Shown: piece after piece, positions 35,224 to 51,548 of the stretch | How positions within the stretch are numbered: position 1 is the stretch's first letter | Layout: every line of letters starts with the position of its first letter | Notes under the pieces: model-generated | Told to the model about the DNA's origin: nothing | Seen by the model: the letters and a program-made list of their open reading frames with translations, nothing else | The model's database searches: none | NCBI GenBank assembly: GCA_019745975.1 | Contig: JAIESQ010000074.1 | Span: forward strand, 1-64,000 | DNA length: 64,000 nucleotides | Direction of reading: 5' to 3' | DNA from: Pirellulales bacterium | GTDB taxonomy: Bacteria; Planctomycetota; Planctomycetia; Pirellulales; JAEUIK01 | Made by a program: the position numbers and the translations under genes

Positions 35224-35354
35224 TTTGCGTCCTAACCGTCCTAAGCGGCTGTCAAAAGTAGTTAAGCCTTTTGTTAGCAACGAGTTATTTTAGGACGCAA
35301 AACTCAAAACCGTTGCGTCCTAGATCGTCCTAAGCGTGGTTTTGCGTCCTAAGC
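35224..35354. repeat. Cluster of TTGCGTCCTAA repeats
   Basis: Four copies of TTGCGTCCTA(A) occur in 130 bases: forward near 35225, 35314 and 35342, and reversed at 35288-35302 (TTTTAGGACGCAA). Shorter CGTCCTAAGC copies add to the set. It could be a regulator-binding cluster or a decayed palindromic element. Confidence 0.6.
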
Positions 35355-38787: not shown

Positions 38788-38805
38788 CGGCGATAATCGC
38801 TAAAA

Positions 38806-39929: not shown

Positions 39930-41462
39930 TCAGAATTTGCTCAGGGCATAGCGCTTCCGCAGGCGCGAACGCAGCCAGACGGCCGACAGGTTCAACACGC
40001 CCACGAGTGCGATCAGCAGAAAGGTTGTCGTGTAAACCAGCGACCGGGTCGCCTCGCTGTTGGGGCTTTGATAGCCGAGCCCATAAATGTGAAAGCCCAG
40101 GTGCATGAACTTGCGATCGAGATGCACCAGCGGCCAGGTGCCATCGATCGGCAGTTCGAAGGCCAGATTCGTCACGCCCACCAGCATGAGCGGGGCCACC
40201 TCGCCGGCGCCGCGCGCCAGCGCCAGGATCAAACCGGTCATCACACCAGGCAAAGCGCGGGGCAGCACGATGCGACGGATGGTTTGCCACTTGCTCGCGC
40301 CGCAGGCATACGAACCTTCGCGCATCGAGCCGGGTACCGCCGCGAGCGCTTCTTCGGTGGCCACGATCACGACCGGCAGCGTAAGCAGCGCCAAGGTGAG
40401 CGCCGACCAGAGCAGCCCCCCTTTGCCGAACGTGGGCTGGCTGGGGAGTCGATCGGCGAAGAACAACTGATCGAGGGACGCTCCCATGGCGTAGCAAAAG
40501 AATCCCAGGCCAAACACTCCGAACACAATGCTGGGCACGCCCGCCAGGTTGTTCACGGCAATTCGCACCAGGCTGACCAGCAGGCCGGGCTTGGCATATT
40601 CGCGCAAATAGAGCGCCGCCAGGACGCCCAGCGGCACGACCGCCAGCGACATGAAGAACGTCATGACGACGGTGCCGACGATCGCGGGAAAAACTCCCCC
40701 CTCGGTGTTGGCGTCGCGCGGCGCAGTCGAGAGGAATTCCCACCACCGCGAAGCGTACACGCCGAGCTGGCCAGCGAGGTTCAGTTGATTGGCCGGGTAG
40801 GCGCGGACGACGTTGGCAAGAGGAACTTCGAGGGTGTTGTCGTCTGGCGTCTTAAGGACCAGGCCGCGGTAAGCGATGTCGGTCGTTCCCCGTCGCCAGG
40901 CCGTGAACGTGCGCCAAACTGCCCCCGGTTCTGAGCTACTGGGCTTCGTGGAATCGTCGGCCGGCAGGAGCGTGGCGGGCACACCGTAGCAACGGCCCCC
41001 TTCGCGACGTTCGACGACGAGCCCCCACTCGGGCTTTTCGACTTTCGTGACGGTTCGATCATCGATCCACACGAAGCCATCGGCGGTACGCATCTGCGTG
41101 CGTCGTGTCGAACCTCCGGCGGCGACCAGCCGGGCGTGCAGCGCGGGCCGCTGACGCAGACTCTCCAGTTCGTCGGCACTGAGTTGAAAGACCTCGGCCC
41201 TGGTCAGTTCGCCAAGGCGCACTTCACCGTCGAGGGTATGAATCGCATACAGCGGTTGCGGCCAGAACGTGCTGATCCCTTGCCCGAAAATCAGCGACAA
41301 CATGCCGACAATCATCGCCAGCGCCAGGGCCAGCGCGCCGCCATTGAGCCAGACCAGCGGTTCGCCGTGCGCCAGTAGCGAGGTCCGCGCGCGTGCGCGG
41401 CGGGAACGGCCTGGTTTGGGCCGCGGCGGCGCTGTCGATTCCACCAGAAAGGTAACGCTCAT
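39930..41462 (-). CDS. pstA: Phosphate ABC transporter permease PstA with extra domain
   Basis: A 510-aa inner-membrane permease. TM1 ([20 protein letters not shown]) is followed by a ~190-residue extracytoplasmic insertion (~70-255) not found in the short E. coli PstA. The conventional six-helix permease core then begins at [18 protein letters not shown]. The coupling-loop motif [25 protein letters not shown] and the [18 protein letters not shown] segment identify it as PstA. Its ATG overlaps the pstC stop (ATGA, 41459-41462). Confidence 0.93.
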
Positions 41463-44053
41463 AGCTGCAAGGTCCGGCGGCGAAACCGCTGCCGCACCGC
41501 TTCGGCCAGGGTGTTGATCAAAAATGTCAAAGCGAACAACACGAGCGCCGTCAGAAAGAGCACGCGAAAGTGCGTGCTCCCCTGATGCGCCTCGGGCAGT
41601 TCCTCGGCCAAGTTCGCCGACAGCGTGCGAAAACCCTCGAACGCGTTCCACGACATCAAGGGGGTGTTGCCGGCCGCCATGAGCACGATCATTGTTTCGC
41701 CGACGGCGCGACCTAGTCCGACCATGACCGCCGAGAACAAGCCGCTCATCGCACTGGGAATGACAATCCGCGTCGTGGTCTGCCAAGGCGTGGCGCCGGC
41801 CCCTAGCGAGGCGCTGCGCAAATGGTCGGGGACGGAGCTCAAGGCATCTTCGGCCAAGGTGTAGATCAGCGGGACGATCGCAAATCCCATGACGAATCCG
41901 ACGACCATGGCATTGCGCTGCACGAACGAGCCGACATACAACCCGCGGGCATCGAGGCCCGCCATTTCGAGCGCCCCGGCGGCCAGCCAGGCAAGCGTCA
42001 CGACGGCCGCGGCGCCGAGCAAGAAGCGGACGAGCTCGAGCATCGCACAAGCGCTGTAGTCCCAATCAGCCGTTAGTCGGCGTAGCCAGGGTCGCACGTT
42101 GCGCCGCATGACCAGGGCCACGGCCAGCGCCGCGAGCGGGATGGTCAATAGCATCCAGCCGCCTGCCGCACCGCCGGTTCCCCCGTCGAGCCAGCGCATC
42201 AAATCGCCGGCGAACAGCCAGCGCTCGAGCGCCGGCGCGGCCGCCCAGGCCAACCCCAGGCCGAGCGGCAAGGTGGCAACGACCAGCCAGAATCGCAGGT
42301 GCTGCCAACGCACCGACACGCGCTGCGGCAACAATTGCCAGAAGTAAGCGCCCAGCAGGCACGTGAAGGGCAACGCGAAAAAGGAAGTCAAGATCTCTGG
42401 CAGCCAGCGCGCCGCCACCGGCGCGAGCACGAACGCCGCCAGGTACCCCAGCACCACGCTCGGCAAGCTGGCCATGAGTTCGATCGTCGGTTTGATGCGA
42501 TTGCGCGTCTGGCGCGAGAGAAACTCGCTCGAGTACACCGCGGCCAATAGCGCGACCGGCACACCGAACAGCAGCGAGTAAAACGTTGCCTTGAGCGTGC
42601 CGAACACAAGCGGCATCAATCCCAGTTTCGGCTCATTGGCCTCGCTGCCGCCCGAAGACTGCCAGACATGTTCGGGGCCGTTGTAGTCTTGATACCACAC
42701 GGGAAAGAACAGACTCGCCAAGGTCGCCTCGGGATACCCCAGGTCGAGCGTGCTGGTGGCTAGGCTGCCGTCGGTGGCAGCCAGCAGAGCATCTTCCTTG
42801 GGGGCGATGGCGACTGCCCGAACTGCTGCCGCCTCGCCCGGCGGAATGGTGACGAGCAACTTATCGGTCGTGGCGTGATACAGCTCGACATAGCCGTCGG
42901 CGCGACCGACCGCCACGATGCGCGTACGGTCCGACGCGGCCAGCGCCGTCACCGCGGCGCCGCCGTGGGAAAGCTCGTGCGTCGCCCGCAGCGCGAACTG
43001 GTCGACATTGTCGAGCCCGTCGGGCCGGACGAGAAACCAGCCCCGGGCGCGTCCTAAACTGTCACCGACCACCAGCGTGCCGCGTCCGGCAAGCGGAATG
43101 ACTTGCGTCAACCTGGCAGCCGGGTCATCGATCAGTCTGACCTGTTCCGCTAGTTTGGGCCGGCCGGCGCGGCGGATATCGAACCGCACGGCCTGGCCGT
43201 CGCTCGATGCGACCAACACGCTCGACGCGAACAACACGATGTGCTCGGGCCTACCCGCCACATCCGTGCCAAGGGGCAAGTCGGCCGTGAGGAGTTCAGG
43301 CTTGGCGTCGCCTCCCGGGGTCGCCGATTTGAGCCAGTGCACGCCGGCTCGACCGTCGTCGGCAACCGTGGCCAGGGTGATGCCGCCTTGCGCGGGATAG
43401 CAATCGAGTCGTCGAATGGCGGACGTCGTGCCAGTCGCTAGCGGTGACCCAAGCTCGAGTCGCACGCGATGTCGGCGAAAGATTCGCTGGGGCGAACGGA
43501 CCAGTACACCATCCGGTAGCGAGACTCGTGCCGGCGATTCGTCGCTCACGACGGCAGGTTCGAGTTTCGCGGCCTCGTTCTGGGAAAGCGTCGTGGTTTC
43601 AAAGGCGAGCGTGCCCACGCGAACCGTGCCGTTGACGTAGCCAACCGCGAAGGCGTCGCTTCCAGGAGTCTTCAGTGACCAGGCCGTGGCCGCAACGTCG
43701 TCGAGGGCCAGGCTGATCTGCTGGACGAGATGACCATCGTCGAGCCGAAAGACCCCCAGCTCGCCGAGCGCACCAAAGGCGATGCCGAGCACGCGGTGCT
43801 CGTCGACATCGAGCCGTTGCGGTGCACCGGTCTGCCACGTGGCTTGGGCCGATTGCGTGTTATCAATTCGCGCCGATCGCACCAGCGGCGCGGCGACCCA
43901 CACCAGATAAACGCACACTCCCAATACCGCGGCAATCGTGCTAATGCCGCCGACCGTAATGATCGAACGCGCCAACGAATCGGCCAACTTGACGCAGGGG
44001 CGCGTGTTTCGTGCCCGAGTCTGGCCGGTTGGAGGAGTGGGTTTGAGCGGCAT
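41459..44053 (-). CDS. pstC: PstC permease with beta-propeller-like insertion
   Basis: An 864-aa protein, nearly three times a typical PstC. After TM1 (~30-57) comes a ~400-residue periplasmic region with repeated WD40-like strands (e.g. ATAWSLKTPGSDAFAVGYVNG, VLVASSDGQAVRFDIR, RIVAVGRADGYVELYHATTDKLL, ALLAATDGSLATSTLDLG). The permease core then starts (LVFGTLKATFYSLLFGVPVALLAAVY) and has the EAA-type loop EDALSSVPDHLRSASLGAGATPWQT and GRAVGETMIVLMAAGNTP. Long PstC variants with such insertions occur in some gammaproteobacteria and planctomycetes. It is translated in overlap with pstA. Confidence 0.93.
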   Translation of the reverse strand: MPLKPTPPTGQTRARNTRPCVKLADSLARSIITVGGISTIAAVLGVCVYLVWVAAPLVRSARIDNTQSAQATWQTGAPQRLDVDEHRVLGIAFGALGELGVFRLDDGHLVQQISLALDDVAATAWSLKTPGSDAFAVGYVNGTVRVGTLAFETTTLSQNEAAKLEPAVVSDESPARVSLPDGVLVRSPQRIFRRHRVRLELGSPLATGTTSAIRRLDCYPAQGGITLATVADDGRAGVHWLKSATPGGDAKPELLTADLPLGTDVAGRPEHIVLFASSVLVASSDGQAVRFDIRRAGRPKLAEQVRLIDDPAARLTQVIPLAGRGTLVVGDSLGRARGWFLVRPDGLDNVDQFALRATHELSHGGAAVTALAASDRTRIVAVGRADGYVELYHATTDKLLVTIPPGEAAAVRAVAIAPKEDALLAATDGSLATSTLDLGYPEATLASLFFPVWYQDYNGPEHVWQSSGGSEANEPKLGLMPLVFGTLKATFYSLLFGVPVALLAAVYSSEFLSRQTRNRIKPTIELMASLPSVVLGYLAAFVLAPVAARWLPEILTSFFALPFTCLLGAYFWQLLPQRVSVRWQHLRFWLVVATLPLGLGLAWAAAPALERWLFAGDLMRWLDGGTGGAAGGWMLLTIPLAALAVALVMRRNVRPWLRRLTADWDYSACAMLELVRFLLGAAAVVTLAWLAAGALEMAGLDARGLYVGSFVQRNAMVVGFVMGFAIVPLIYTLAEDALSSVPDHLRSASLGAGATPWQTTTRIVIPSAMSGLFSAVMVGLGRAVGETMIVLMAAGNTPLMSWNAFEGFRTLSANLAEELPEAHQGSTHFRVLFLTALVLFALTFLINTLAEAVRQRFRRRTLQL

Positions 44054-44084: not shown

Positions 44085-45149
44085 CTAGTTGGCGTCGAGG
44101 CGGACAAGCGATTGAACCTGGGCCGCGGCCTGGGCGCCGAGCGGGAGGTACCCGTCGCGAACGACCTCCGCCTGACCTTCGCGGCTCAGTACGTACCGAA
44201 CGAACTCGGCCGACAGCGGCGGCAGTTGACTGCCCGGGGCGTGGTTCACCGTCAGCCACAGGTATCGCCAGAGTGGGTATTCGCCTGAATAGGCGAACTT
44301 CGGCTCCGCCGGGATCGCGGGATCTCCGGCATTAGCCGATAGCGCCACGGTCCGTACGTCGGCGGTGCGATAGCCGATCCCGCTGTAGCCGATCGCTGTC
44401 GGATCGCTGCCGACCCCCTGCACCACGGAAGAGCTGCCTGGTTGGGCTTTGACAGAGTCTTTGAAATCGCCGCCGCCGAGGACTTTATCCTTGAAGAAGC
44501 CGTAGGTGCCGCTCGACGCGTTGCGGCCATAAAGGCTGATGCTTCGTGCGCGCCACGGTCCGCCGCCAATGACTTGTCCCCACTGCGAGATGTCCTGGGG
44601 TTCTCCCAGCTTGCGCGTTTTCGAAAACATGGCGTCGAGCTCGCCCAGCGACAACTCGCGCAAGGGATTGTCGCGATGAACGTACACGGCGACCATGTCG
44701 ATGGCGGTTGCCAACTGCATCGGCTTGTACCCGAAGCGCGCTTCGAACTCGTCGATCTCTTTCGGCTTCAAGTCGCGGCTCATCGGACCAAACGTGGCGG
44801 CGCCGGCGACCAGCGCCGGAATCGCCGTCGATGAGCCCTTGGCTTCGACTTCGATCTCCACGCGCGGGTGAAACCGTTTGAAGCCTTCGGCCCAGAGCGC
44901 CAACAGGTTGTTCATCGAGTCGGAGCCGACAAACGTCAGCCGACCGGTAAGCTCGGTCGTGGCTTGATAGGTCGGCAGGGCGGCATCAATCTGCACCGCG
45001 GGAGCCGATTGCCCCGCGCGGGATTCCGCGGCGCTGGCCCCGAGGTCGGTCGCGGCAAGTGGAATGGGCGGACTGACACCACAACTTGCGGTCGACACCA
45101 AGAGCAACAGCGAACCAAGCAGCAGCCGCACTCGCGTATCGACGGCCAT
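44085..45149 (-). CDS. pstS: Phosphate-binding lipoprotein PstS
   Basis: A 354-aa periplasmic phosphate receptor, from ATG 45149 with AGGTG upstream. Signal and lipobox: VRLLLGSLLLLVSTASCG. The PstS pattern is clear: LTFVGSDSMNNLLALWAEGF, EAKGSSTAIPALVAGAATFGPMSRDLK, the SGTYGFFKDKVLGG loop and IGYSGIGYRTADVRTVAL. It opens the pst operon directly behind the PHO-box array, with pstC 31 bases downstream. Confidence 0.95.
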   Translation of the reverse strand: MAVDTRVRLLLGSLLLLVSTASCGVSPPIPLAATDLGASAAESRAGQSAPAVQIDAALPTYQATTELTGRLTFVGSDSMNNLLALWAEGFKRFHPRVEIEVEAKGSSTAIPALVAGAATFGPMSRDLKPKEIDEFEARFGYKPMQLATAIDMVAVYVHRDNPLRELSLGELDAMFSKTRKLGEPQDISQWGQVIGGGPWRARSISLYGRNASSGTYGFFKDKVLGGGDFKDSVKAQPGSSSVVQGVGSDPTAIGYSGIGYRTADVRTVALSANAGDPAIPAEPKFAYSGEYPLWRYLWLTVNHAPGSQLPPLSAEFVRYVLSREGQAEVVRDGYLPLGAQAAAQVQSLVRLDAN

Positions 45150-45237
45150 CTTGGCACCTGGTGTTCGCGATCGTCGCGGCCGGTCAGAAGACCGCGACCG
45201 GATTCCCACGCCGGAAGTTTAGAGATCGCGGCGGGTC

Positions 45238-45292
45238 ATTCTGTGAAGCATCCGTAAAGAATCAGCCAGCATTCGGTTAAGATTCGATGAAG
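45238..45292 (-). promoter_or_regulatory. PHO box: five tandem 11-bp repeats before pstS
   Basis: On the minus strand five consecutive 11-bp units can be read: the 7-mers CTTCATC, CTTAACC, GCTGGCT, CTTTACG and CTTCACA, separated by the 4-base spacers GAAT, GAAT, GATT, GATG and GAAT. The 7+4 arrangement is that of PhoB-type boxes. The middle unit is degenerate. The last repeat contains TTCACA, which with TCTAAA (45218-45223, 18-base spacer) makes a plausible promoter. The array ends about 90 bases before the pstS ATG. Confidence 0.85.
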
Positions 45293-45363
45293 CGAGATTC
45301 TGGCGCAGTTTTAGCGCAATCGAAAACCTGCGCCGCTTCACGACTTAGCGGCGATCCCCCAAC

Positions 45364-47061
45364 CTATTCGGACTGCAACACCGAATCGAGGGGGCCAACT
45401 GATGCTGCCGCGGGTGGATCGACTGCCAGCACGCGCGCGAGCGTCGTACCCAGGCAGCCGGGACTAGCAAGTTCCAGGTAGCGGCCAGGCTTGATGCCGG
45501 CTCCCCAGAACAGCAAGGGAACGTGGCGATCGTACTCCCAGGGGGTGCCATGCGAAGCCGTGTTTTTCGAGCCCTGCAAGACGTAGGGCACCATCGCGAA
45601 CAATACGTCGCCGCTCCGCTTGGGGTGCATCGTGCGACGAAACAACTCGGGCAAGCCTTCGCCGCCGACAGGCATGGCGATCAACTCGTCCTGCGTGTAC
45701 GCAATCGCGACGCTAGGCTCTTCCAGAAGTGCTTGTCGCACGATCTTCCGTGCCGCGAACAGCTTCTCTCCAATCAACTCCGGCTGCGTGTGATCGAGAA
45801 AGATCTCCACCCCTTCGGCCCGCGCGACGAGGGGCTTGCCGCTGGCTGCAATTCCCAAGTCGTTGCGCAGGCGCTTCTCGAGCCTGGCGGCCAATTGCGT
45901 GGCGTCGCCCAGCGGATTGCGCGCGCCGCGCAGTCGCAGGGCCATCGCTAATTCGGGCACGGGCCCGACCCCGTGATCGGAGCTCAAACCGAACGTCCAA
46001 TTCCCGGCGCCGATCCGCTCGTCGAGCCAGCGCATGAACTCGCCGAGATCACGGTCCATTCGAAAGGTAACGTCCTGAACTTCCAAGCTATGCGGCCCAA
46101 AGGCGTGCCCCACGTAGTCGTTCGACGAAAGGCCGATGCAAAGCAGGTCGGGCACGTTGTCGCCGCCGAGTTGTTCGTGCTCGACCAGCAACCGCGCGAC
46201 AGCCAGCGTCAGCTCGTTGCCGAAGGGCGTTGCCTCCAGCAGTTTGAAGTAGTTGGCGTCCGCCTGCGCCGGCATGCGATGCGGAAAGGCGCGCCCTAGC
46301 GGCGGGAAGTTCGTCTCGTACGGATTATCGTCGGGCAGGTCGCGGCGATAGCATTCGGTCGGCGCGATCAGCTCCCACGATTGACCGGCATACGCTTCGG
46401 CCGCGCTGGATTCGTTCAGGTTACGCAGGTAGCCCGGCAAGTCGTCGCGATAGTACTTGCTCGTGACCCAATTGCCGGAGTTTTCGTCGAACCAGTAGGC
46501 CGCATCGGCCGCGTGGCCGGCGGGCAAGACCGCCGAGCGGTCCTTTTGAGCGACTCCAAACACCTTGGCCTTGCCATAGGTGGCTAGCTTGAGCGCATCG
46601 CCAAGCGTGGGTACGAGCAAGTTGCGCGGAGAAACGCCTTTGTCGAGGCTGGGCGCACCGACGAGCGGCGCTAGGGCGTCCTCGACGCAGCCCATCGTTC
46701 CTCCAGGGCCGCGGTGATACCAGCCGTTGCTGACAATTCCATGCACTGCCGGATCGGTGCCGGTCAGCAAGCTCGCGTGCCCCGGACCAGTGATGGTGAA
46801 GGCGTGCCGATGATAGCAGTTCGTAAACCACGCTCCACTGGCAAACACTTGCTCGAACAGCCCGTCCTTCGCGAAACCTGAGCGGAACTGCTCGAGGTAC
46901 CGCTGCGGCAATTGGTCGACACTGACGACGACGATCAATCGCGGCCGCTCGGCGGATTCGGCCGCAGAGCCACAGACGGCGAGCGACGCCGCGAACAAAA
47001 ACAGGGCGGGCACGGCGCGCTTTGCCGGCGCGCCGCGCAACAAGCGACGGTGAATTCTCAT
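45364..47061 (-). CDS. PafA-like alkaline phosphatase/phosphodiesterase
   Basis: A 565-aa exported protein (signal to about residue 36, AAES-AE). It belongs to the alkaline phosphatase superfamily with a Thr nucleophile: VSVDQLPQRY (Asp49) and TITGPGHASLLTGTDPAVHG (Thr91), then LCIGLSSNDYVGHAFGPHS and SSDHGV with metal-binding Asp/His. This is the pattern of PafA-type monoesterases. Placement just upstream of the PHO box and pst genes on the same strand supports phosphate release under starvation. A weak two-unit box (ATTTACA and CTTCATT, 11 bases apart, 47098-47115) lies upstream of it. Confidence 0.9.
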   Translation of the reverse strand: MRIHRRLLRGAPAKRAVPALFLFAASLAVCGSAAESAERPRLIVVVSVDQLPQRYLEQFRSGFAKDGLFEQVFASGAWFTNCYHRHAFTITGPGHASLLTGTDPAVHGIVSNGWYHRGPGGTMGCVEDALAPLVGAPSLDKGVSPRNLLVPTLGDALKLATYGKAKVFGVAQKDRSAVLPAGHAADAAYWFDENSGNWVTSKYYRDDLPGYLRNLNESSAAEAYAGQSWELIAPTECYRRDLPDDNPYETNFPPLGRAFPHRMPAQADANYFKLLEATPFGNELTLAVARLLVEHEQLGGDNVPDLLCIGLSSNDYVGHAFGPHSLEVQDVTFRMDRDLGEFMRWLDERIGAGNWTFGLSSDHGVGPVPELAMALRLRGARNPLGDATQLAARLEKRLRNDLGIAASGKPLVARAEGVEIFLDHTQPELIGEKLFAARKIVRQALLEEPSVAIAYTQDELIAMPVGGEGLPELFRRTMHPKRSGDVLFAMVPYVLQGSKNTASHGTPWEYDRHVPLLFWGAGIKPGRYLELASPGCLGTTLARVLAVDPPAAASVGPLDSVLQSE

Positions 47062-47141
47062 AGCGGGCCACTATAGGCCGCCGGCCAGCGAGGCTCAAAT
47101 GAAGGACCTGTAAATCCGTCCGCAGATCCCGAGCCGAACGA

Positions 47142-48992
47142 CTAGATGATCCCATGCAAGGGTCCGCCGGGCGCGCCGAGCTTGTCGACGCGGCGACTGA
47201 CTTGCGGATCCTCGACTAGCGGCGGGGCATGATGCGGCTTGGCGCGCGCGTCGATCACCAGCGGTCCACGACAGCCCCAGTGTTTTTGCTCGACAAACGA
47301 CTCGATTCCATCGATATCCGCGGCTGGATCGCTGCGCGTGAACGCCGTCCAGAGGAAGTTCCCAAGCGTCTCGGCCACGAAGCGACTGTCATCGACAACG
47401 ACCACCAATGGGAACGCGGCGATTTCATGGCGCGAGTCGAGCTGCTGGCAAAAGCGCGCGACCGCCTGGTCGCCGCGACCAAGGACCGACCAGCGCGGGC
47501 CGCGAATCGCCAGCACGCCCGGCAAGCACACCCGCGGATCGTCGAATCCCTCCGGCAGCGCCGCGGTCGCTGTCAGCTCCTGGGGTAACTCCGTCGGCAA
47601 TTCGCGCACGGGTGGTCCAGCGGCGGCGATCACCACTTTCGAGCCCTCGTTCAGGCCGGTCCCTGAGTAGTCGAGGGTGTCGATCGTCGTGCGCGTCTGA
47701 AAGTGCAAATCGCGGCGCCAATCAACGCGCGCCAACAAATGCCGGATGAAGGCGGCGATATCGTGTGCGTCGAGGGCCGGATCATCGTCGCGGGCCACGA
47801 TCAGCAAATACTTCGCCAGTGACATCTGGCCTTGCCCGAGGATCGCATTTGCGATCGTCAGCAATTCTTGCGGCTGGCGCCGCTCGGCAAAGGGCACATA
47901 CCGCTCGCTGCCGATGGCCAACAACAGCGGATGCACTCCCGCCGCGTCGACGGCGTGCACGGCGTGCAAGCCAGGCACGACCATCGGGATCGCCGGCCCC
48001 GTCAGTTCGTGGATCAACTGACCGAATGTCGTGTCTTCTTGCGGCGGACGCCCGACGACGGTGAACGGCCAAATGGCGCCTTCGCGGTGGTAGACGTGTT
48101 CGACGCGCAGCACCGGAAACTCGTGCGCCAGGCTGTAGTAGCCGAGATGATCTCCAAAGGGCCCTTCCGGCAGCAAGCGATCGGGATCGACCGTGCCGGT
48201 AATGCAGAAGTCTGCCTCGGCGACGATCGGCAGTTGCTTGTCAGAGTAGTTCAGTGCAAGTCGGCGCCCTCCTAGCGCGCCGGCAAAGCTCAACTCCGGC
48301 ATTCCCTCGGGGAGCGGCATCACCGCCGACAAGATCAACGCCGGCGGTCCGCCGACAAAGATGTTCACGCGCAGTGGTACACCGCGGCGCACGGCAGCCG
48401 CGTGATGGACACCGATGCCGCGGTGAATTTGATAGTGCAGGCCGATCTCGTGGTTGCGAGCGTATTGCCCACCGTCGAGCTGCACGCGATACATGCCCAG
48501 GTTCGATCGCTGCCAGCCGGGGCGCTCGACATCTTCGGTATAGACCGCGGGTAGTGTGATGAAGGCGCCGCCATCATTGGGCCACGATTTGACGGCCGGC
48601 AAACGATCGACGGAAATTTCATTGGCCAGCACGGCGGCGCGTCGCACGCGCTTGGGAAGCGCATGCAGGGTAGCCAGCGCGACGCGGCGGTAGCGCCAGG
48701 GGCGGCGCAGGGCGGCCGCCGGATCGCCCTTTAGCTCGATGAGCTGTCGGACCGCGGCCAGGGTGTCGCGAAACAAGAATCGCGCCCGCTCGATCGTTCC
48801 GAACAGATTGCTCGCCAGCGGAAACTGGCAGCCGCGCACCCGTTCGTAGAGTAACGCCGGACCGCCCGCCGCATAGACGCGGCGCTGGATGGCGGCCGCT
48901 TCGAGGTGAGGATCTATTTCCTCTTTGATGCGTACCAACTGCCCTGTGCGATCCAGATCGTCGATGCACTCACGCAGCGATCGGTAGCCCAT
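47142..48992 (-). CDS. ubiD: UbiD-family decarboxylase
   Basis: A 616-aa protein of the prenylated-FMN-dependent UbiD (de)carboxylase family. Family features: residues 1-60 (YRSLRECIDDLDRTGQLVRI), ALLYERV, NLGMYRVQ, HYQIHRGIGVHHAA, LPEGPFGDHLGYYSLAHEFPVLRVEHVYHR and EDTTFGQLIHELTGPAIP. It starts at ATG 48992, overlapping by one base the stop of the porin gene (TGATG), so translational coupling is likely. The substrate is unknown; a UbiX flavin prenyltransferase is not in the window. Confidence 0.9.
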   Translation of the reverse strand: MGYRSLRECIDDLDRTGQLVRIKEEIDPHLEAAAIQRRVYAAGGPALLYERVRGCQFPLASNLFGTIERARFLFRDTLAAVRQLIELKGDPAAALRRPWRYRRVALATLHALPKRVRRAAVLANEISVDRLPAVKSWPNDGGAFITLPAVYTEDVERPGWQRSNLGMYRVQLDGGQYARNHEIGLHYQIHRGIGVHHAAAVRRGVPLRVNIFVGGPPALILSAVMPLPEGMPELSFAGALGGRRLALNYSDKQLPIVAEADFCITGTVDPDRLLPEGPFGDHLGYYSLAHEFPVLRVEHVYHREGAIWPFTVVGRPPQEDTTFGQLIHELTGPAIPMVVPGLHAVHAVDAAGVHPLLLAIGSERYVPFAERRQPQELLTIANAILGQGQMSLAKYLLIVARDDDPALDAHDIAAFIRHLLARVDWRRDLHFQTRTTIDTLDYSGTGLNEGSKVVIAAAGPPVRELPTELPQELTATAALPEGFDDPRVCLPGVLAIRGPRWSVLGRGDQAVARFCQQLDSRHEIAAFPLVVVVDDSRFVAETLGNFLWTAFTRSDPAADIDGIESFVEQKHWGCRGPLVIDARAKPHHAPPLVEDPQVSRRVDKLGAPGGPLHGII

Positions 48993-50932
48993 CAAAACTC
49001 AACTTGAAATCGCGCGGCAAAGATATCAAACGGTGCGTAACCGAAGCCGCGGTAGGTCGGCATGCTGTGAATCCAGTTGAATTGTACGCGGGTGAACTTG
49101 TTCCACCACCAGTTCAAGGCCAAGGTGGTTTGGTTGACCACGCCCGGGTTTGGTGCGGGGGGTGGACCAGCGGCATTCGAGATTTGATTGGCTGGATTGA
49201 GGTTGACGCCTGAAAGGTCTTGCCACGACCAACGGAAGGCTGCCTCCCAGGCGCCCCAGCCGCCGAAACCGCGTTTGCGGCCCAGGCCAAAGAAGTCGCT
49301 GTAGGGCACGACGTTGTAGTCGAGCACGCCCGCTTGCTTGAGATACAAGCAGCTTTCGCCAGTCAGGAAGTAGCCGCACTGGAAGTAGGCTCCGGGATAG
49401 AAGATCGCGGGCCCGCCCAGTTGATTGAGCGAGGTCGCGAGGAATTCTGTCTGGAAGTGTGCCGAGCCGAAGTTGCCGGCGAGCTCCGTGTGCCAGAAGT
49501 TGAAGCTATTGGCCGCGATCCGACCGGTGTCGACAACCGCCGGCGTGCCATTGGCGGTCAGGAATCCGCCCGATGGATCGCCCACGAAGAACTCGGGGAC
49601 GGGGCGGGAGTTGAACGCCTTGGCGTCGGCTCCCGCTCGGCCTTTGCCCCCGAGTTCGCTGAAGTTGTAACCGCCGCCGACATGCAACAGATAACGGCCG
49701 TCGGAGGGTTCATCGTAGTAGACAAGCCGCGAAGCCCGCAACGAGAAGGAAACACCGCCTGAGTCGCCGATCTGCGTGCCGTAGCGATTGTCGCCGATCG
49801 TCGTATAAGTGGTGTCGACGCCATTGAAGAATGTTAACCCGGTTCCGTAGATGCTGTAGGCCCACTGCATCATCTCGTCTTCGCTCATGGCATAGGCCAT
49901 GATGCCGACGCGGCGGAACGGGTCTTGAGACTGGAAGGGAAGCGAGCGCTCCAGGAATTCCAAGTGGCGAATACTGGTCCAGTTGTCCATCGTCTCCGGC
50001 ACGCGGAATTGCCCGATACGGACCGTGCCGAGGAATGGGATCTCCGACTGTTCACCCCACACGTCGGCGAAGCTGGGGTGCCCGGCGATGGCGAAGTCCA
50101 TTTCGATCGACAAGCCCGTGTGCTCGGTCAATTTGCCGATGGCTTGCAGACGGGTGCGTCGAAAGCCCACGCCATTCTGGATGTCGCCCAGCCGAGCAAA
50201 CGACGCCTGGCTTTGGGTGAACATGCCGTCGTCGAGTTGCGCGAAGCCACTAAGCCGGATGAGCGGCAGTGTTGGCTTGCCGGCAGCTTCGAGCTTCTGC
50301 TCCACCGCCCCGAGTCGCGAGCCCAGATTGCCGATCTGATTGGGATCGAGCACGGGGGAGCCGCCGCTGTCACCCGACACGCTGGAGGAGTTGGGATCGA
50401 TCCGATTGCGGAGGTTGCCGATCTGGTTCGGGTCGAGCACGGGGCTGCCCGGCTGCATCGCCGTGACGAATGAGCCACCCTCTTGATACGCGACTGGCGC
50501 AACCTCAGATTCCACGGGCGGCAAGGGCTCGCAACCGCCAGTGGTTGGTGGTGGCTCCATGAACGCGGGTGCAGATGCATGCGCAACCAGGCTTGGCGCG
50601 CCGGTGCGAGGCGCCGCTGCGTACGCGACCAAATTGGGGGTCGCAGAAGCGGCCTGATAATGTGATACGAGTTGCACCGCGCCCGATGATTCTCGCGGCG
50701 GATATGCAGGGGGCACCGGCACGAACTGCGACTGCGCAAGCAAATGTTCTGGGTAGCGCCGCGCGGCTGGCGACATGCTCGCCGCGGTATTCGCCGGCGT
50801 TGGTGCCGTCAGTGATTTCTGCGGCGCTGCTCTCGCGACGAGGTAGGGAGCCTGTGCGTAAGTCGGCGCGCCGACGATCGCCGACACGATCGCCGTCAGG
50901 ACGAGTAGTTTTCGTATCTGCGTCGCGCGCAT
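48992..50932 (-). CDS. Phosphate-selective porin O/P-like outer membrane protein
   Basis: A 646-aa exported beta-barrel. ATG 50932 gives signal MRATQIRKLLVLTAIVSAIVGAPTYAQA. A low-complexity linker to about residue 170 contains two repeats of GSPVLDPNQIGNL, followed by an Leu/Glu heptad-like stretch (LGAVEQKLEAAGK). The barrel region matches porin O/P: FAQLDDGMFTQ, GFRRTRLQAIGKLTEHTGLSIEMDFA, GTVRIGQFRVPETMDNWTS and the C-terminal FAARFQVEF. In planctomycetes such porins are common. Its position ahead of the phosphatase and pst genes suggests phosphate uptake across the outer membrane. Confidence 0.82.
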   Translation of the reverse strand: MRATQIRKLLVLTAIVSAIVGAPTYAQAPYLVARAAPQKSLTAPTPANTAASMSPAARRYPEHLLAQSQFVPVPPAYPPRESSGAVQLVSHYQAASATPNLVAYAAAPRTGAPSLVAHASAPAFMEPPPTTGGCEPLPPVESEVAPVAYQEGGSFVTAMQPGSPVLDPNQIGNLRNRIDPNSSSVSGDSGGSPVLDPNQIGNLGSRLGAVEQKLEAAGKPTLPLIRLSGFAQLDDGMFTQSQASFARLGDIQNGVGFRRTRLQAIGKLTEHTGLSIEMDFAIAGHPSFADVWGEQSEIPFLGTVRIGQFRVPETMDNWTSIRHLEFLERSLPFQSQDPFRRVGIMAYAMSEDEMMQWAYSIYGTGLTFFNGVDTTYTTIGDNRYGTQIGDSGGVSFSLRASRLVYYDEPSDGRYLLHVGGGYNFSELGGKGRAGADAKAFNSRPVPEFFVGDPSGGFLTANGTPAVVDTGRIAANSFNFWHTELAGNFGSAHFQTEFLATSLNQLGGPAIFYPGAYFQCGYFLTGESCLYLKQAGVLDYNVVPYSDFFGLGRKRGFGGWGAWEAAFRWSWQDLSGVNLNPANQISNAAGPPPAPNPGVVNQTTLALNWWWNKFTRVQFNWIHSMPTYRGFGYAPFDIFAARFQVEF

Positions 50933-51548
50933 CGAACCGACTCGGAACACGAAACCCGTTGCGGACCAATGTGACAAGCGAGGCAGCGAAATCGCCGCCT
51001 GCGGGTATGAGTAAATCGTCCCTACAATCGAGAATCTTGCTACAATCGCCTTAGATTAACGCGAAGTTACGTTACGAGGCTCGCTTTGGGCCCCTTTTGG
51101 TGAAGCGCGGTTGAGTAGTACGTATTTGGCAATCCCAGCAAGCAAGCGCCAGCATGCTCCGGGCGGCGGCTCTCAGATCGGCGCGTCGAGCAGCGACGAC
51201 TCCTGGCAGCGTCCTTGCTGGCCGGGCGCTCGCGAGCGCGTTGCTCCCGACTGGAGCTAGACGGCAGACTTTTCCAATCGTTCCGGTTTCGCAGTCGCTT
51301 GCCGAGATCGCATGACGACTACGCGGCGCGCCCGTGCGAATCAGCCGTCAAGAAGCTGGCGCGCAACTCTTGAACGGCTGGCGATTGTTGTTAGAGTCGA
51401 AGTCTGGGGATCGATGCTCGGGAGAAAGCCCGCGCGGCTCCGACATCGCGCGACGTACCGTCGTTCGTTCGATCGTTGCTGTGTTCCCTTCACACGATCG
51501 AAGGCCGCACGTCGCAGGCCTGGTCGTCCTTGGTGGAAAGCTGTTGTC
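50933..51548. other. Intergenic region with repeated CTACAATCG
   Basis: A 616-base gap between the divergent porin and 51549 genes. Two copies of CTACAATCG (51022-51030 and 51040-51048, 18 bases apart) lie in the AT-rich part about 90 bases upstream of the porin start. No coding frame with support was seen. Confidence 0.5.

Follow-up and report, generated by a model that had tools for sequence, protein, structure and literature searches.

A predicted PhoB operator of phased 11-bp repeats upstream of pstSCAB in a Pirellulales bacterium, and PHO-box dialects among its relatives

Results

A phased repeat array precedes the pst operon

Within a 64,000-nucleotide stretch of a Pirellulales genome (hereafter the window), we found an array of five repeat units immediately ahead of pstS that, judged from sequence, is very probably the PhoB operator and promoter of pstSCAB. 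Its minus-strand sequence, from 45292 to 45238, is CTTCATC-gaat CTTAACC-gaat GCTGGCT-gatt CTTTACG-gatg CTTCACA-gaat, matching letter for letter the five-unit 7+4 repeat of the original prediction, and the array ends at 45238. Four of the units are good and one is degenerate; all are 11 bp long (7+4) and keep a strict register, with starts at 45292, 45281, 45270, 45259 and 45248 and a constant step of 11 bp. Units 1, 2, 4 and 5 fit CTTHAY at 6/6 positions and unit 3 (GCTGGCT) at 2/6. Base 3 of the heptamer is T in all four good units, and the G of the E. coli type (CTGTCAT, in the narrow sense) is absent. The array sits in a 214-bp intergenic gap that extends from the end of a gene for a PafA-like phosphatase to pstS (Table 1).

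The placement before pstS was likewise borne out: the downstream gene scores over the TIGR02136 cut-off and is followed on the same strand by pstC, pstA and pstB. The open frame of pstS extends to a GTG at 45209, and ATG 45149 is the likely start on the basis of the predicted signal peptide and lipobox and a Shine-Dalgarno-like sequence. The size of PstC is uncommon among Pst permeases, and its extended N-terminal region gives weak matches to beta-propeller (WDR) models. No convincing array was found for the PafA-like phosphatase gene itself, where a pair at 47115 scores at background, nor was a PHO array found before the start of the Porin_O_P gene.

Table 1. Positions of the predicted operator, candidate promoter elements and neighboring genes in the window
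Feature	Position	Strand	Basis or remark
PHO-box array, five 11-bp units (7+4)	45238..45292	-	out-of-sample matrix matches at 45293 and 45260; shuffles
Unit 1 CTTCATC, spacer GAAT	45286..45292	-	sequence and matrix
Unit 2 CTTAACC, spacer GAAT	45275..45281	-	sequence and matrix
Unit 3 GCTGGCT, degenerate, spacer GATT	45264..45270	-	matrix pairs including unit 3 score 3.6 and -1.2
Unit 4 CTTTACG, spacer GATG	45253..45259	-	sequence and matrix
Unit 5 CTTCACA, spacer GAAT	45242..45248	-	sequence and matrix
Second in-register -10 candidate CAGAAT	45243-45238	-	score 5.5 with relatives' -10 matrix
Candidate -10 TAAACT	45216..45221	-	top relatives'-matrix score in 120-bp tail, 6.1; predicted
pstS	44085..45149	-	likely ATG 45149, AGGTG upstream; PBP_like_2; TIGR02136 210 bits (cut-off 206.6)
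pstC, 864 aa	41459..44053	-	TIGR02138 203 bits, over cut-off
Open frame with pstA in 3' part	39930..42065	-	TIGR00974 240.6 bits, over cut-off
Open frame with pstB in last ~250 codons	38911..40746	-	TIGR00972 395.6 bits, over cut-off
PafA-like alkaline phosphatase	45364-47061	-	NF042991 434 bits, below cut-off 650; directly upstream of pstS
Porin_O_P gene (phosphate-selective porin type)	48992-50977	-	upstream of UbiD-type gene

A motif learned from other genomes recovers the array

Since the motif of the original prediction had been picked after the site was seen, we built an independent matrix. Of 246 genomes in the order to which this bacterium belongs, 130 have a pstS homologue, and further homologues came from other genomes. 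An unsupervised EM motif search, seeded with random 22-mers, was run on 73 pstS upstream regions from other genomes, with the Pirellulales genome under study excluded. It returned an 11+11 direct repeat, roughly nSYTMAC-nAAA-tBYTMAC-AAT, with an 11-bp period and present in about 93% of the 73 regions. The array contains two matches to this blind matrix, one at 45293 (p 9.3e-6) and one at 45260 (p 2.6e-5), which lie 33 bp apart and thus in phase. When the 214-bp intergenic region was shuffled, a pair as good as the first together with an in-phase second one arose in 8/200,000 trials, and at least three in-phase CTTHAY units in 1/200,000. The array is the best five-unit one on either strand of the 64 kb, scoring 26/30 and followed by independent ones at 22 and 21, with the consensus behind this scoring chosen after the site was seen. 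Arrays also precede pstS in most of the relatives that have a pstS homologue.

Two further sites in the window were noted. The match at 38798(+), CGCTAAAAGCAGTTTCACAATT, slightly outscores the pst pair and was rejected, having no evident downstream gene on that strand. At 35258-35290 on the minus strand, AAATAACTCGT-TGCTAACAAAA-GGCTTAACTAC forms a weak in-phase triple resembling the C dialect described below, some 250 bp ahead of a DUF1501 gene; the window contains two DUF1501 genes, in keeping with a planctomycete genome.

Promoter geometry

Besides the repeats, the only conserved element in 58 relatives is a -10 hexamer (T60% A84% n A59% n T64%) that begins at a fixed offset of 28 from the pair start, in register. 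E. coli Pho boxes are described as standing some 10 bp ahead of a -10 of the form TAN3T/A (PMC1906773, in its background section). The best candidate here, TAAACT, outscores the relatives' upper quartile of 5.2 with the same matrix and keeps the 11-bp register, but its distance from the last good unit exceeds that of the relatives' -10 by one turn, and the classical -10 position after that unit reads GCCGCG, which is not a -10. No sigma-70 -35/-10 pair, no terminator and no Rfam RNA (riboswitch) was found in the pstS leader. A riboswitch or terminator was accordingly rejected, and the missing elements are as expected for an activator-dependent promoter.

A second array precedes phoU-phoB

The single-copy phoU gene (C130:1265-1966) encodes a protein over the TIGR02135 cut-off and is directly followed by the best PhoB gene (C130:582-1283). 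Upstream on the same contig lies a gene for a PhoR/PnpS-like kinase, which falls below its NCBIfam cut-off. A gene for an unrelated PEP-CTERM-like protein (L054 2219-2932, minus strand) separates the kinase gene from phoU-phoB. About 145 bp upstream of phoU we found GTTCACG-cggc-GTTTACC-tgat-CTTCATC-aatt. Similar arrays before other phosphate genes, the lack of which the original prediction had named as evidence against itself, are thus represented by this site; jointly with the arrays before pstS in most relatives with the homologue, it lends good support to the claim of a PhoB-type operator. Arrays before phoU were seen in twelve relatives. Several relatives in which phoU heads an operon have arrays, and where phoU lies directly behind pstB there is none.

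The original prediction also proposed its consensus as a tool for finding the regulon. Across the whole genome the strict motif CTTMAYN5CTTMAY gave 4 matches against 4 in a reversed control, which is control level, and the other three matches fall in or beside non-phosphate genes. The looser 19-base TTHAYNNNWNNTTHAYNNW did better, with 18 matches versus 6 for its reversed control. The only matches that were intergenic with a same-strand phosphate gene directly downstream were two pairs at pstS and one at phoU; as TTHAYNNNWNNTTHAYNNW had been loosened to fit the phoU site, recovery of phoU is not independent, and the informative result is how few other promoters match. Two other matches (on contigs C112 and C165) sit 28-40 bp before open frames. 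Searching for three BTTHAY units with one mismatch gave its sole exact match before phoU and was discarded as independent evidence, B and H having been chosen post hoc. A simple motif is therefore a weak regulon finder: among the matches of the looser form, plausible phosphate promoters are confined to pst and phoU.

Box dialects and the PhoB recognition helix

The DNA-binding domain of the encoded PhoB aligns with the E. coli PhoB effector structures 1gxp/3t72 (E ~2e-21). Against TIGR02154 the protein scores 239 bits, with a cut-off of 296 that 0/80 related genomes exceed. As this cut-off is missed, PhoB orthology rests on the best hit, the synteny with phoU and the recognition helix. The latter reads RTIDVHIRSLR, with Ser where E. 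coli PhoB has Arg201. In many relatives the helix is approximately RSVDVQVAGLR (read at five loci, each in a different genome), without the E. coli residues His198, Arg200 and Arg201.

To read dialects, we took the best pstS box of each genome, scored with the matrix masked at columns 1, 2, 12 and 13, and the helix from the genome's own phoB; in 53 genomes the box was clear and the helix could be read. Dialects exist, and the variable base largely matches the kind of PhoB. With Gly at E. coli position 201 the base is C (CCTMAC) in 26/27 genomes; with Ala or Ser it is T (CTTMAC) in 21/22, the genome under study being in the T group. Arg at this position goes with G (the E. coli-like TGTMAC) in 3/3 genomes, all of them outside genomes and the only ones with G, and the one genome with Asn has T. 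Two genomes, G498 and G016, break the residue-201 rule. The planctomycete consensus put forward originally thus holds for part of the group: CTTMAC accompanies lineages whose PhoB helix is RTIDVHIR[S/A]LR, but in many families of this order the box is CCTMAC.

On a receiver-domain tree the box letter needs about 4 changes (the minimum possible being 2), of which well-supported branches force only 1, and with so few independent changes a sign test cannot reach significance. In the crystal of E. coli PhoB with DNA, Arg201 hydrogen-bonds a guanine while Thr194 and Val197 touch thymines (PMC3973317), which makes a pairing of base and residue plausible. A universal residue-201 code is ruled out: RegX3 aligns an Arg with residue 201, and yet T is found in the Streptomyces box (PMC4415409); in SphR the contact residues of PhoB are reportedly conserved, with a box of CTTAACCT (PMC1906773); and G498 and G016 deviate as well. 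Overall, co-evolution of box letter and helix is suggested. More specifically, and with a little less than even confidence, we propose that the dialects CTTMAC, CCTMAC (within one order and its neighbors) and TGTMAC (outside) co-evolved with the PhoB helix (Ser/Ala, Gly and Arg at 201, plus His/Gln198), and that the operator letter may have switched with the regulator more than once.

Comparison with known systems

A PHO-box switch before pstS is of the expected kind and already known elsewhere. Like the E. coli PHO box, the array consists of several consecutive 11-bp head-to-tail units (PMC4415409) before pst and pho regulator genes, and the relatives' -10 stands at a fixed distance past the last unit. 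Unlike the E. coli box CTGTCAT, it has T in place of G (C in many relatives), and PhoB has Ser in place of Arg201. The T at the variable base and the spacing are shared with the cyanobacterial SphR box CTTAACCT and the Streptomyces PhoP box GTTCACC (PMC1906773, PMC4415409), and the SphR consensus opens with the same seven bases as unit 2, CTTAACC (PMC1906773). Those boxes belong to another phylum and another regulator and are experimentally supported, whereas the array described here is predicted. Closest at hand are the CCTMAC boxes that other families of this order carry ahead of pstS; these boxes share spacing, -10 geometry and gene, but have C rather than T at the variable base and the helix RSVDVQVAGLR rather than RTIDVHIRSLR. 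Our literature search, with most subscription journals outside its reach, found no paper on a planctomycete PHO box.

Discussion

We interpret the array as a predicted PhoB operator on the strength of its phasing before pstS, the blind motif, the -10 of the relatives, the array before phoU-phoB and the presence of a PhoB, PhoU and kinase set; in addition, the G to T difference in the box accompanies the Arg201 to Ser difference in PhoB. At low phosphate, the sensor kinase encoded near phoU-phoB would phosphorylate PhoB, and PhoB~P dimers would bind in head-to-tail order, each covering two 11-bp units. Units 1 and 2 would take one dimer and units 4 and 5 another, while degenerate unit 3 and the turn that follows unit 5 may be filled cooperatively. 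PhoB~P would then replace the missing -35 and bring RNA polymerase to a -10 in the 11-bp register, with TAAACT at 45221 as the most likely one and CAGAAT at 45243 as the alternative, switching on pstSCAB. The second array, before phoU-phoB, would make PhoB autoregulated.

Three other explanations bear on this interpretation. It is extremely improbable that AT-rich heptamers have fallen into this period by chance within a GC-rich genome. A single matrix pair of such strength is expected about once per 64 kb (E ~1.2 across the window) and is not significant by itself; the evidence against chance is place, phase and number of units combined, as reflected in the rarity of two in-phase pairs among shuffles of the 214-bp gap and in the conservation of the array before most pstS homologues. 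It is also very unlikely that the array serves another regulator of the OmpR/PhoB family. Members of this family generally bind direct repeats of such spacing, which would fit a regulator other than PhoB, and the genome encodes two more full-length members (on contigs C143 and C122). Both best fit CzcR/CopR metal-response models, however, and no comparable array was seen in the 6 kb around either gene. A similar array stands before phoU-phoB, and the variable base of the box follows the PhoB helix across genomes.

The remaining alternative keeps PhoB as the bound protein and competes solely with the promoter details of the operator proposed above. In it, a dimer on units 1 and 2 would activate CAGAAT at 45243, inside the array, and units 4 and 5 would tune transcription down or restart it further on, giving a dual or partly repressed promoter. 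The register and -10 score of CAGAAT are compatible with such an arrangement, as is the degeneracy of unit 3. The units tend to end in a CAnAAT-like sequence, however, so that the match is partly built in, and TAAACT outscores it; we consider a dual promoter unlikely, though a good deal less so than the other two alternatives.

For the PhoB operator favored here, one consensus for all planctomycetes should give way to two or more, selected according to the type of PhoB. Together with the matrix and the -10 geometry, the two dialects would permit prediction of the Pho regulon in a large and little-studied group of bacteria, for which a regulon scanner must use the dialect matching the PhoB that each genome encodes.
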